A stretch of DNA of 64,000 bases from Candidatus Vallotiella adelgis (GTDB taxonomy: Bacteria; Pseudomonadota; Gammaproteobacteria; Burkholderiales; Burkholderiaceae). The notes below the pieces were generated by a model. It worked only from the letters and a program-made list of their open reading frames with translations, was not told the DNA's origin and did no database searches. Of the stretch, positions 13,234-61,951 are shown piece by piece. The stretch spans positions 682,001 through 746,000 of the forward strand of contig NZ_CP047396.1 in the NCBI RefSeq assembly GCF_020541305.1, in the 5' to 3' direction. Position 1 is the first letter of the stretch. Every line of letters starts with the position of its first letter. Position numbers and translations under genes: made by a program.

Positions 13234-13275
13234 GCTTCTCCCATTAGCGCTATAATGAGCGCTAATGGGAGAAGC
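13234..13275. repeat. perfect 18-bp inverted repeat, 6-nt loop
   Basis: GCTTCTCCCATTAGCGCT and its exact reverse complement flank ATAATG. It lies between the MFS gene and tRNA-Val, with no T-run on either side, so it is not a classic terminator. An 18-bp perfect stem is far beyond chance. Confidence 0.9.
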
Positions 13276-19889: not shown

Positions 19890-20776
19890 GAATGCAATTC
19901 CTCCTAAAATATTGAGTAATTTGAGTATCTGGCTCTCAGTGCGCTAAACGACGACTTCCAATATCGAAAGATGGTTAGCCGCGCGTTCCATTAGCCCCTC
20001 TACATTTAGGCCGCTTAGCAGAAGCAATATAACTTTTGCCGATTCATCTGGTTGAACTAAACTCTTGACCGACTGAGTACGCGTATCTAAAAAGCCGTTC
20101 AAGTGTGGTACAAGCGATGCTTGATTGAAACAAAATCAGCATACCCAGGCCAAGAATCGCATGATCTGTGCCACTGTTACCTTTGGACTCGCTATTAGTG
20201 ATCGCACTGACCTAGTATAATCATCTCACTATTTAGTGAGATAAAATACTAATAGATGTATTATAGCTATATGATTAGGCCTGCATTTCTCACAAAATTC
20301 TGTTAGTCGCGCTATCAAGAAGAAGAGGCATGCTTGCTTGTGTTTGGGGGATGATCGGCAAATGCATCTAACCAGGATAAATGCTCGATAAAATTCAGCA
20401 GTCAACTGGGGGGAGTATTTACGATATAAAAAGCGACTAAGTTAGATATGTAATGCGCTAGCGCGTTGACATGTTATATGCGATTCCCACCTTAATACCG
20501 ACATTAAGAAAGCAGGTGACGGCAAGAATAATGATTTTGAGATAGCCGCAATTATATGCTCTAGAACCGACTCATAGTACAACTTCCGGCGCCAAACAAA
20601 GAAATTGCAGTAATTCAAACCCATGCACCAGTTAATTCTAACCCTGAATCGCACAAATCAAAAATTGACACGAAGCCTGCTTTGGTTGCCTTATTTTTCA
20701 GAAAAATAAGGCAACGGATTAAGACAATAAAGAAAAACAGAAATAGCACTGCTGCCTGCGCAGTGCGGTAGATCTA
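19890..20776. other. gap upstream of tig
   Basis: No intact gene is present. It holds one degraded open stretch (see 19944-20135) and two perfect hairpins. One is ATCTCACTA/TAGTGAGAT with a 2-nt loop at 20223-20242. The other is TTGCCTTATTTTT/AAAAATAAGGCAA with a 3-nt loop at 20686-20714, about 60 nt before tRNA-Leu. Confidence 0.6.
19944..20135 (-). pseudogene. degraded open stretch, possibly a TetR-type regulator C-terminus
   Basis: On the minus strand 64 codons are open between TGA (20136-20138) and TAG (19944-19946) with no start codon that would make a credible gene. The translation includes AKVILLLLSGLNVEGLMERA, whose Leu-rich helix pattern recalls the ligand domain of TetR-family repressors. 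The similarity is faint and I would not assign a function. Confidence 0.25.
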
Positions 20777-27658: not shown

Positions 27659-27693
27659 GACAATGCAGCCTTCTGATCGAAGGCTGCATTGTC
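27659..27693. repeat. perfect 15-bp inverted repeat, 5-nt loop
   Basis: GACAATGCAGCCTTC and its exact complement flank TGATC. There is no U-run on either strand. It lies in a gene desert inside an open frame that I consider spurious. Confidence 0.9.
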
Positions 27694-28819: not shown

Positions 28820-28862
28820 ATAACTATGCCTCACTTGCTCTAAGAAAGTGAGGCATAGTTAT
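28820..28862. repeat. perfect 17-bp inverted repeat, 9-nt loop
   Basis: ATAACTATGCCTCACTT and its exact complement flank GCTCTAAGA. No gene is within 700 nt on either side, so a terminator role is hard to argue. Confidence 0.9.
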
Positions 28863-35130: not shown

Positions 35131-35667
35131 ATGAAATTTTGTTCTGTCTGTAGCTACACAGTAAGTCTATGCGTGCCTCCCGGCGATAATCGCAAGCGTT
35201 TTGTGTGCGATAACTGCAATACAATTCACTACGTGAATCCACGTAATGTAGTTGGAACAGTCCCAATCTGGGATAATAAGCTGTTACTATGTCGTCGAGC
35301 CATAAAACCGCGCTATGGATGCTGGACATTACCGGCTGGCTTCATGGAAATAGGCGAGACAACGGCGGAAGCTGCTATACGAGAGACTCTAGAAGAGGCG
35401 GGGGCGCGCGTCGAGCTTCAGATGCTATTCACTGTACTCAATGCGCCATATGTACATCAAGTTCATCTATTTTACCTCGCGAGACTGCTCGACATCGACG
35501 TGCAAGCTGGCGCAGAAAGTTTAGATGTGAAGCTATTCGATGAAGCCGATATTCCGTGGGATAAGATCGCGTTTCCAACCGTTGGGCGAACTCTGCACCT
35601 TTTCTTTGCTAATCGTATCTCGGGCGGCTATGGCTTGCACTCCGGTAATGTCTTTTACTCGCAATAG
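35131..35667 (+). CDS. Nudix hydrolase with N-terminal zinc ribbon
   Basis: From ATG 35131 (MKFCSVC) the product is 178 residues; a TTG 7 codons upstream is unlikely. A four-Cys ribbon (CSVC near 4-7, CDNC near 28-31) precedes a complete Nudix box starting GFMEIGETTAEAAIRE and continuing TLEEAGA (about 70-92). The architecture resembles NADH/ADP-ribose pyrophosphatase-like Nudix proteins that clean up nucleotide derivatives; the substrate is not deducible. Its last codons and stop are part of a 45-nt perfect palindrome, so the C-terminal residues (NVFYSQ) may have been rewritten by that event. Confidence 0.88.
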   Translation: MKFCSVCSYTVSLCVPPGDNRKRFVCDNCNTIHYVNPRNVVGTVPIWDNKLLLCRRAIKPRYGCWTLPAGFMEIGETTAEAAIRETLEEAGARVELQMLFTVLNAPYVHQVHLFYLARLLDIDVQAGAESLDVKLFDEADIPWDKIAFPTVGRTLHLFFANRISGGYGLHSGNVFYSQ

Positions 35668-35689
35668 TATTGCGAGTAAAAGACATTAC
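35645..35689. repeat. 45-nt palindrome (22-bp arms, 1-nt centre) over the Nudix stop codon
   Basis: The left arm runs 35645-35666 (ends TTTTACTCGCAATA) and the right arm 35668-35689 is its exact complement (begins TATTGCGAGTAAAA). The stop TAG 35665-35667 is at the apex. It could protect or end the mRNA, but the arms are longer and more perfect than usual terminators and lack a following T-run. Confidence 0.95.
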
Positions 35690-45631: not shown

Positions 45632-47155
45632 ATGACAGTCATCAAGCAGGAAGATCTGATCCAGAGCATTGCCAATGCTCTGCAATATATCAGCTATTAC
45701 CATCCGCTAGACTATATTAAGGCGCTGGCCCGTGCTTATCAGCACGAAAAAAGTGTGGGAGCAAAAGACGCAATCGCGCAGATTTTGACTAATAGCCGGA
45801 TGTGCGCAGAAGGGCGTCGACCGATTTGCCAAGATACCGGTATTGTTACAATCTTTATTAAGGTTGGTATGGAAGTGCGCTGGGATGGCGCAACAATGAA
45901 CGTGACAGACATGATAAACGAAGGCGTTCGGCAAGGCTACACTTACACAGATAATGTGCTACGCGCTTCGATCGTTAATCCCCCAGAAGGTGCTCGTAAG
46001 AATACCCGAGATAACACGCCAGCAGTAATTCACTATGAAATTGTTTCTGGCGACAAGCTTAGCGTACAGGTGGCAGCAAAAGGCGGTGGCTCGGAAAATA
46101 AATCGAGGTTCGCAATGCTGAATCCGTCTGATTCTATCATCGACTGGGTGCTTAACATGGTAGCAGGAATGGGGGCTGGATGGTGCCCGCCTGGCATACT
46201 TGGGATTGGCATAGGTGGTACTGCTGAGAAAGCGGTATTAATGGCTAAAGAATCACTGATGGATGTAATTAACATCCAAGATGTAATTTCCTGTGGGCCG
46301 CGAAATTGGATCGAAGCGCTGCGTGTTGAACTTTACGAGAAAGTCAACGCGCTCGGCATCGGCGCCCAGGGGCTGGGGGGCCTCTCAACCGTGTTGGATG
46401 TAAAGATCATGGCAGCACCTACGCACGCAGCCAGCAAACCACTTGCGATTATCCCAAACTGTGCGGCAACTCGTCATACGCACTTCATACTTGATGGTTC
46501 GGGCGTCGTTCGGCTAGATCCACCGCCAATTGAAGCCTGGCCCAATATACATTGGCAGCCGAACACTAAAACTAGCCAGCGCGTGGACCTCGATACACTA
46601 ACGCGAGAGCAAGTCGCTAGCTGGAAGTCCGGTCAGCCGCTGTTGCTCTCGGGTAAAATACTGACCGGACGTGATGCCGCGCATCAGCGTATTGCCGACA
46701 TGTTAGCCAATGATCAACCGCTACCCGTCGACTTCACAAACCGCGCAATTTATTATGTCGGACCAGTTGACCCAGTGCGCGACGAAGTCGTCGGGCCGGC
46801 CGGCCCGACGACTTCGTCGCGCATGGATAAATTCACCGAAATAATGCTTGCACAGACTGGCCTTATTTTGATGATTGGTAAGGCCGAGCGTGGCCTGGTT
46901 GCGATTAATGCAATTAAAAAGCATAAGGTTGCCTACCTAATAGCAGTTGGCGGTGCCGCGTATTTAGTATCTAAGGCAATACATAGCGCGCATATAGTCG
47001 CATTCGAAGATCTTGGGATGGAGGCTATCTACGAGTTCTCGGTTAAAGATATGCCGGTTAGCGTTGCAATAGATTCTAATGGGACATCAGTCCATCAGAC
47101 TGGCCCTAGGAAATGGAAAAATAAGATTGGCAGACTATCGATTGCAACCGTGTAA
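45632..47155 (+). CDS. fumA: fumarate hydratase class I (4Fe-4S)
   Basis: The enzyme hydrates fumarate to malate in the TCA cycle using an oxygen-sensitive [4Fe-4S] cluster. The 507-residue chain is full length. Cluster Cys candidates are in RRPICQDTG (about 66) and IPNCAATRH (about 280). The family block PVRDEVVGPAGPTT (about 381-394) and GGAAYLVSKAI are present, and the tail MPVSVAIDSNGTSVHQTGP is normal. The codons for VRDEVVGPAGPTTSSRM form a 48-nt perfect palindrome; I recall TTATR rather than TTSSR in homologues, so two residues may have been templated. No strong ribosome-binding site precedes the ATG. Confidence 0.95.
   Translation: MTVIKQEDLIQSIANALQYISYYHPLDYIKALARAYQHEKSVGAKDAIAQILTNSRMCAEGRRPICQDTGIVTIFIKVGMEVRWDGATMNVTDMINEGVRQGYTYTDNVLRASIVNPPEGARKNTRDNTPAVIHYEIVSGDKLSVQVAAKGGGSENKSRFAMLNPSDSIIDWVLNMVAGMGAGWCPPGILGIGIGGTAEKAVLMAKESLMDVINIQDVISCGPRNWIEALRVELYEKVNALGIGAQGLGGLSTVLDVKIMAAPTHAASKPLAIIPNCAATRHTHFILDGSGVVRLDPPPIEAWPNIHWQPNTKTSQRVDLDTLTREQVASWKSGQPLLLSGKILTGRDAAHQRIADMLANDQPLPVDFTNRAIYYVGPVDPVRDEVVGPAGPTTSSRMDKFTEIMLAQTGLILMIGKAERGLVAINAIKKHKVAYLIAVGGAAYLVSKAIHSAHIVAFEDLGMEAIYEFSVKDMPVSVAIDSNGTSVHQTGPRKWKNKIGRLSIATV
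46776..46823. repeat. 48-nt perfect palindrome inside fumA, no spacer
   Basis: Twenty-four bases (46776-46799, ending GTCGTCGGGCCGG) are followed directly by their exact reverse complement (46800-46823). It encodes part of a conserved fumarase block, so both protein and DNA symmetry are maintained at once. The chance of a specific 24-bp perfect match is negligible. Confidence 0.97.
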
Positions 47156-61659: not shown

Positions 61660-61951
61660 ATAGGTTTATTTGTCAACGTATATGTATCACCTGAATCGCC
61701 TCGTGAGGGATTAATCTAACACCCATCAATATAGTGCCAGATAACTACTAGTAGCATCAAACATTAAAGAGCGCAGAATGCTATATCACACCAGGGCTCC
61801 AGATGTTTGAAAACAAAGCACTTTCGGCGTAGAAACGAGCGCTCGCGCGAGAAGGCACGTTAGAAATAGGCTCTTATAGCTTTAGTATTGCGCATTAATA
61901 ATTAGCATCGTGTGGCGTGTGCTCTAGCCAAGTTAGATGTACTCGCATCAC
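61660..61951 (+). pseudogene. mutS: fragment of mismatch-repair protein MutS
   Basis: In one frame from 61734, VPDNY is followed by two stops and then HQTLKSAECYITPGLQ. This continues MFENKALSA, stop, KRALAREGTLE, which is the MutS core-domain sequence (typically RRQTLKNAERYITPEL...DKALSAQERALARE). After a +2 shift HRVACALAKLDVLASL (61916-61951) continues the match (typically QRVASALAELDVLAAL). Nucleotides 61660-61733 loosely match the preceding region. The ATPase domain is not found. This corresponds to the middle third of MutS. An unidentified remnant (AIEDILGNFPRNAASSVTSR, 61984-62043) follows. Mismatch recognition by MutS is lost unless another copy exists. Confidence 0.85.

Follow-up and report, generated by a model that had tools for sequence, protein, structure and literature searches.

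The question raised by this locus is how a long, perfect palindrome came to lie within the coding sequence of an intact fumarase gene, and why it is kept there. The window, a stretch of 64,000 nucleotides (G000:C1:682001-746000) from a source genome of 1.24 Mb in two contigs, contains an open reading frame identified by profile search as a class I fumarate hydratase gene (Pfam Fumerase, 1.2e-93, and Fumerase_C, 7.2e-81; TIGR00722 and TIGR00723 both above cut-off). As had been predicted from the letters of the DNA, 48 bases of this gene (46776-46823) form a palindrome without a spacer, whose two arms of 24 nt are 100% complementary and which is in frame on the plus strand, at codons 382-398 of 507 (Table 1). 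It reads VRDEVVGPAGPTTSSRM. Judged from sequence, this is the arrangement of a coding palindrome of the Nematomorpha type, a perfect repeat in an intact gene with both arms lying within a conserved stretch.

Table 1. Coordinates of the fumarase palindrome and of the other features discussed. Positions are those of the window unless a locus is given; arm and spacer lengths are written as arm+spacer+arm.
Feature	Position	Strand	Description
Class I fumarate hydratase gene	45632..47155	+	Intact ORF, 507 aa; Pfam and TIGR matches
Palindrome, left arm	46776..46799	+	Base 2 of Val382 to base 1 of central Ala codon
Palindrome, right arm	46800..46823	+	Base 2 of Ala codon to base 1 of Met398; exact reverse complement
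T393 T394 S395 S396 R397	46808..46822	+	T393 and R397 align with T503 and R507 of 5l2r
Codons Ser395 Ser396	46814..46819	+	Replacements making the peptide self-antisense; Ala-Thr in 95/110 homologues
mutS remnant	61728..61859	+	3 in-frame stops; G000:C1:743728-743859
Perfect inverted repeat	13234-13275		18+6+18
Perfect inverted repeat	20685-20715		15+1+15
Perfect inverted repeat	27659-27693		15+5+15
Perfect inverted repeat	28820-28862		17+9+17
Perfect inverted repeat	35645-35689		22+1+22
mltG self-antisense palindrome in G005	L213:2991-3039		22+5+22
mltG self-antisense palindrome in G002	L209:4939-4985		17+13+17
glyS coding palindrome in G000	L158:11552-11586		17+1+17
metE coding palindrome in G000	L142:17138-17176		17+5+17

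The centre of the palindrome falls between bases 1 and 2 of the alanine codon, so that base 1 is placed opposite base 2 and wobble opposite wobble. In this register the peptide pairs with itself as R-R, D-S, E-S, V-T, V-T, G-P, P-G and A-A, the D and E standing opposite the two residues that follow Thr-Thr. Two non-wobble pairs fail when these residues are Ala-Thr, and none when they are Ser-Ser. Both strands of the palindrome in the window encode RDEVVGPAGPTTSSR and, with Ser-Ser in place, copying either arm onto the other therefore leaves the protein unchanged. The chain 5l2r is a Leishmania fumarase of 604 residues; we take its T503 and R507 to be Thr467 and Arg471 in the literature numbering, in the active site, and the self-antisense residues presumably surround this threonine and arginine. 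A literature search for a paper on the catalytic threonine found none.

The genus is represented here by eight genomes: the source genome, three reduced sisters (G002, G003 and G005; 1.1-1.2 Mb) and four large-genome congeners (G001, G004, G006 and G007; 3.3-3.8 Mb). We infer that the reduced sisters are the adelgid symbionts "Ca. Vallotia" and that G003 is Ca. Vallotia tarda. The contigs of G003 are of 1,123,864 and 72,431 bases and the second contigs of G002 and G005 of 67,397 and 61,393 bases; plasmids of 67 kb in V. lariciata and of 61 kb in V. cooleyia are given in an excerpt of PMC8857208. In a tree calculated from the whole fumarase gene, palindrome columns included, the source genome groups with the three sisters and is placed outside them; the tree carries a warning of unequal base make-up.

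The 48-mer was compared in 110 homologues, comprising the window and loci L003-L111; L001 and L002, which are copies of the window, were omitted, and eight loci that fail a stricter motif were retained in the analysis of codon usage and pairing. The two residues after Thr-Thr are AT in 95 homologues, ST in 11 and SS in four, which confirms the replacement given in the original prediction, and the four with Ser-Ser are the window and the three reduced sisters. A wider search for the Ser-Ser version covered 399 genomes of the order; its pattern also picks up the ordinary left arm on the opposite strand and is blind to other left arms (such as RDEAV) and to AGY serines. Among the matches listed, in a table read by eye, matches on both strands occur in two of the 399 genomes (G000 and G385).

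Outside the reduced group, the 106 homologues pair at 11-20 of the 24 positions and none has fewer than four mismatches. The alignment bears out the expected ancestral asymmetry of the block, the four large-genome congeners having 6, 6, 7 and 8 of 24 pairs mismatched, so that an asymmetric inverted repeat, the raw material of quasipalindrome correction, is found at the same place. Congeners with VRDEVVGPAGPTTATR already form 14 of the 16 non-wobble pairs, and part of the symmetry of the palindrome is evidently imposed by the peptide. For the eight wobble pairs, a null expectation was obtained by holding the peptide fixed and redrawing the codons from each gene's own usage, with 4000 draws per gene. 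The mean for the window gene was 1.86 of 8, and none of the 4000 draws gave all eight. The four symbionts have 8, 8, 7 and 6 of the 8 wobble pairs against 1.9-2.0 expected, levels attained in 0, 0, 0.02% and 0.3% of the draws; because the four are related these are not four independent tests, and it is the matched differences between them that carry weight. The other 106 homologues average 2.89 wobble pairs against 2.63 expected, which is chance, and in none of them are 7 or 8 formed. Relatives having the same palindrome by codon choice, the outcome named in advance as telling against arm copying, were thus not seen in this set.

The palindrome is present in all four reduced genomes compared, with differing letters. 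It is perfect over 48 bp in G003, where a Val→Ile change adds one pair and so extends it to 50 bp; 23 of the 24 pairs are formed in G002, the sole exception being G-U, and 22 of 24 in G005, with mismatches A.G and U.C. All the positions that vary among the four within the 48 columns are wobble positions. Both sides have changed in seven of the 24 pairs and a single side in none, and 97.9% of the 96 cells are paired. The covariation, 0.278, is reached in 0 of 500 shuffles and is at most 0.072 when the partners are slid; the percentage paired is likewise reached in 0 of 500 shuffles and the seven doubly changed pairs in 1 of 500. The five measures include one that counts against the pattern: for further pair types, the symbiont number is reached in 47 of 500 shuffles. 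Among the four large-genome congeners no both-side changes were found, and 71.9% of cells are paired at the true register versus 18-44% when the partners are slid. Arm identity has therefore been kept over evolutionary time in the four reduced genomes, as in palindromes of the Nematomorpha type, and the notion of a single, recent or fleeting event is not sustained.

The six pairs mismatched in every congener are all formed in the source genome, the derived letters being the reverse complement of the other arm. Relative to the congeners, right-arm columns 38, 39, 42 and 47 carry the letters of the left arm, columns 39 and 42 being the Ala→Ser and Thr→Ser changes, and left-arm columns 20 and 23 carry those of the right arm. 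Pair 2/47 is G.G in the congeners; its right side has changed in the source genome and its left side (column 2) in the three sisters. The original prediction of a right arm rewritten from the left is upheld for the four right-arm columns, and with it the account of Ser-Ser as a product of left-arm copying, but it is incomplete, since the left arm has changed as well, at columns 20 and 23 and in the sisters at column 2. Because left-arm columns also moved towards the right arm, the alignment suggests that arm copying, if real, went in both directions and took place more than once. At 0.12-0.20 changes per column, the symbiont fumarase branches are too long to show that several letters changed simultaneously in one event.

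We consider that the palindrome is probably the product of recurrent quasipalindrome correction by template switching, bidirectional, silent at the level of the protein and self-maintaining, and we put the probability of this reading at about 0.8. On this view the block is an old quasipalindrome, dictated by the conserved peptide. At least one template switch in the ancestor of the reduced symbionts, whether by fold-back of the nascent strand or by a jump to the other strand, would have put the left-arm D-E codons into the right arm and so created Ser-Ser. Thereafter, copying of either arm would be synonymous, and later point mutations at wobble positions would be copied across repeatedly and in both directions, so that the arms evolve as a concerted pair in a tract ending about where copying would alter the protein. 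This reading draws on the anatomy of the palindrome, the matched changes, the contrast with the congeners and, as described below, the mltG case and the loopless excess in the sampled symbiont DNA; template switching would be the agent, and silence to selection the reason for persistence. Three observations make template switching, in our judgement, the likeliest agent: the founding change corresponds exactly to the copying of an arm; the unrelated mltG gene shows the pattern again, and loopless palindromes are plentiful outside ORFs; and the other relatives pair no better than chance.

Matched changes on both sides would also result from selection on a functional RNA hairpin or DNA cruciform, serving mRNA stability, attenuation or as a protein site, in which compensatory point mutations maintain the stem. 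The predicted hairpins are indeed very stable in the four symbionts, at -48.8 (source genome), -47.7, -44.8 and -39.1 kcal/mol, compared with -15.7 to -26.4 in the congeners, and the one exception in G002 is a G-U pair. The mismatches in G005, however, are not G-U intermediates, and the chance-level pairing in the 106 other homologues gives no sign of an ancestral function. Although the stem is kept within the four reduced genomes, conservation beyond the peptide constraint is not found outside them. The location within the gene, at codons 382-398, also speaks against a selected stem, as do the same pattern in unrelated mltG and the many loopless palindromes outside ORFs, and we regard such a stem as unlikely.

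The remaining alternatives are weaker still. That a single recent template switch occurred in the source genome alone would fit the right-arm changes, which follow the left arm, Ser-Ser included; it is distinctly improbable, as it is contradicted by three sisters with Ser-Ser, near-perfect pairing and other letters, and by the changes in the left arm. Codon choice combined with the peptide constraint accounts for a part of the symmetry, homologues with VRDEVVGPAGPTTATR being forced by the peptide into their 14 non-wobble pairs, but, given how rarely the codon draws reach the symbiont wobble pairing (with the same caveat that the genes are related), it is scarcely plausible as the whole cause. 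An assembly fold-back artefact is very unlikely indeed, to the point of being negligible: four separate assemblies carry different letters in an intact frame, and Ca. V. tarda, the presumed G003, was assembled from Illumina and nanopore reads according to an excerpt of PMC8692619.

Inverted repeats elsewhere were counted in symbiont samples totalling 1,024 kb (464 kb of G000, 400 kb of G003 and 80 kb each of G002 and G005) and in control samples totalling 880 kb (400 kb of G007, 240 kb of G004, 120 kb of G018, of similar GC, and 120 kb of G020). With arms of at least 16 and a spacer of at most 2, there are 18 perfect repeats in the symbiont samples versus 0 in the controls; with arms of at least 12 there are 45 versus 5, four of these five being in the 17%-GC G020. 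Removal of the two fumarase palindromes, from G000 and G003, leaves 16 and 43, respectively. First-order Markov versions of the symbiont samples contain 0 repeats at arm ≥12 and spacer ≤2. When spacers of 0-12 are admitted at arm ≥12, nine repeats in G000 lie inside ORFs of at least 150 aa and 37 outside, and a higher density within ORFs of the symbionts was not found (9 in 281 kb in G000, 4 in 235 kb in G003 and 8 in 319 kb in G007). The symbiont excess is thus outside ORFs and among the loopless palindromes. At short self-antisense sites outside fumarase, an endosymbiont-specific wobble excess was not found either, the wobble pairs formed being 24 of 43 in G007 (12.7 expected) and 20 of 40 in G000 (10.9 expected, fumarase subtracted).

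A second self-antisense palindrome is present in mltG (TIGR00247 above cut-off) of G005 and G002, in different letters and with three matched pair changes between the two. In G003, the site shows two mismatches against the G002 arms, with 4/4 doubly changed pairs matched, and five against the G005 arms, with 5/5 matched. In the congener G007, where the peptide was compared, it is somewhat different at this site, and the sampled part of G000 did not show the site. Taking all repeats outside fumarase with arms of at least 12, pairing is retained in 64 of 98 doubly changed pairs, versus 125 of 458 over eight slid controls (8/52, 17/60, 21/64, 19/65, 12/48, 7/42, 24/62 and 17/65). mltG is part of the count of 64/98, in which comparisons run both ways, some loci overlap and some repeats may be terminators under selection, and, as only two repeats are comparable between the large-genome congeners, the test has no real congener control. 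In G003, 8 and 9 mismatches are found in the coding palindromes that G000 has in glyS and metE, respectively; persistence of coding palindromes is thus not general.

A palindrome of this length had been taken as a hint of weakened hairpin cleavage by SbcCD or of relaxed repair. Profile searches gave no match to SbcD in any of the eight genus genomes, palindrome-bearing or not, and for SbcC none above cut-off, with weak matches in four of the eight; in the family, SbcD has a match in 28 of 60 genomes and one above cut-off in 9 of 60. Weakened SbcCD is accordingly not supported as an explanation, and its loss was rejected as the cause, SbcD being equally undetected in the four palindrome-free genomes of 3.3-3.8 Mb. 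Relaxed repair is left with a partial case: MutS, above cut-off in all four large genomes, is represented in all four reduced ones by fragments with stops (that of the window is in Table 1). The loss of MutS is a correlate of the palindrome, by association only. A 2003 paper by Yoshiyama and Maki is said to speak in its title of template-switch hotspots resistant to mismatch correction. Loss of exonuclease VII was rejected, xseA being above cut-off without stops in 8/8 genus genomes. Exonuclease I had no match in 8/8, with a model that matched just 1 of 14 control genomes, and so does not separate the symbionts from their congeners; RecB is above cut-off in 8/8. In an excerpt of PMC8692619, mutS, mutL, recG and recQ are named among the pseudogenes. 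We would give even odds to the broader proposition that a self-antisense peptide makes a palindrome self-perpetuating, arm copying being invisible to selection on the protein because both strands encode the same residues, so that the arms evolve in concert while the lineage lasts, and that arm conversion is a leading source of substitutions at the inverted repeats of this clade, in genes and in decaying DNA, once MutS had been lost from a genus in which neither SbcD nor exonuclease I is detectable.

The closest known system is that of the coding palindromes of hairworm mitochondria. Excerpts of PMC6649704 describe, in Nematomorpha, perfect inverted repeats in protein genes with both arms coding for conserved residues, palindromes of up to 284 bp, and arm conversion by template switching as an origin that the authors consider and that requires no function; repeats above 65 bp occur only in phases 1 and 2, the wobble-to-wobble phase 3, the most restrictive, being absent above that length. 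The fumarase palindrome differs in lying in a bacterial chromosome and in the strictest phase 3, and in that matched synonymous changes allow its arms to be followed across four species. Rickettsia palindromic elements, which the same excerpts name as palindromes in protein genes of reduced bacteria, are insertions said to lose arm identity with time (PMC6649704), whereas the fumarase palindrome is a conserved block in place, with no insertion. In E. coli, quasipalindrome template switching makes an imperfect inverted repeat perfect by arm copying (excerpts of PMC7202029 and PMC6357072), in laboratory reporters and at hotspots; in fumarase, a single protein-silent site would have undergone such events repeatedly in the course of evolution. 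Arm homogenisation by template switching in yeast genes leads to clustered amino-acid replacements, with some events recurring (PMC8604942, in excerpt), but there the comparison is of strains, and here one founding pair of replacements would have been followed by silent repeats in a bacterial lineage. RNA hairpins created and maintained by template switching, with matched stem changes explained by copying, are described in part of PMC8794818; those cases are RNA genes under structural selection, unlike a protein gene whose other relatives have no stem beyond the peptide constraint. According to an excerpt of PMC10434271, a survey finds the highest inverted-repeat frequencies more often in endosymbiont genomes. 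Among the best literature matches listed, from a coverage outside which most subscription journals lie, none described a bacterial chromosome in which matched changes maintain a coding palindrome.

Matched changes in a stem are usually taken as strong evidence of a functional RNA. Those in fumarase fall within protein-coding sequence for which nothing points to an ancestral stem, and at a site where copying is silent in the protein. If arm conversion is the true cause, covariation alone would be weaker evidence of function, at least where repair has eroded, and the symbiont clade would offer a natural system in which to measure template switching over evolutionary time. The rule of phase 3 plus a self-antisense peptide predicts further sites.

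The second contig of the source genome (66 kb) is probably a plasmid; for a piece of it, the best eight plasmid records listed are all from Mycetohabitans. It carries recB (G000:C2:1587-5273, L244), which is also found on the second contigs of G002, G003 and G005, and this gene is a possible reason for retention of the contig.

Near the start of the same fumarase gene lies a separate inverted repeat of 10+1+10 (window 45662-45682). Its doubly changed pairs match 2/2 in G003 and 2/2 in G002, and 4/10 and 3/10 of its pairs, respectively, are mismatched.
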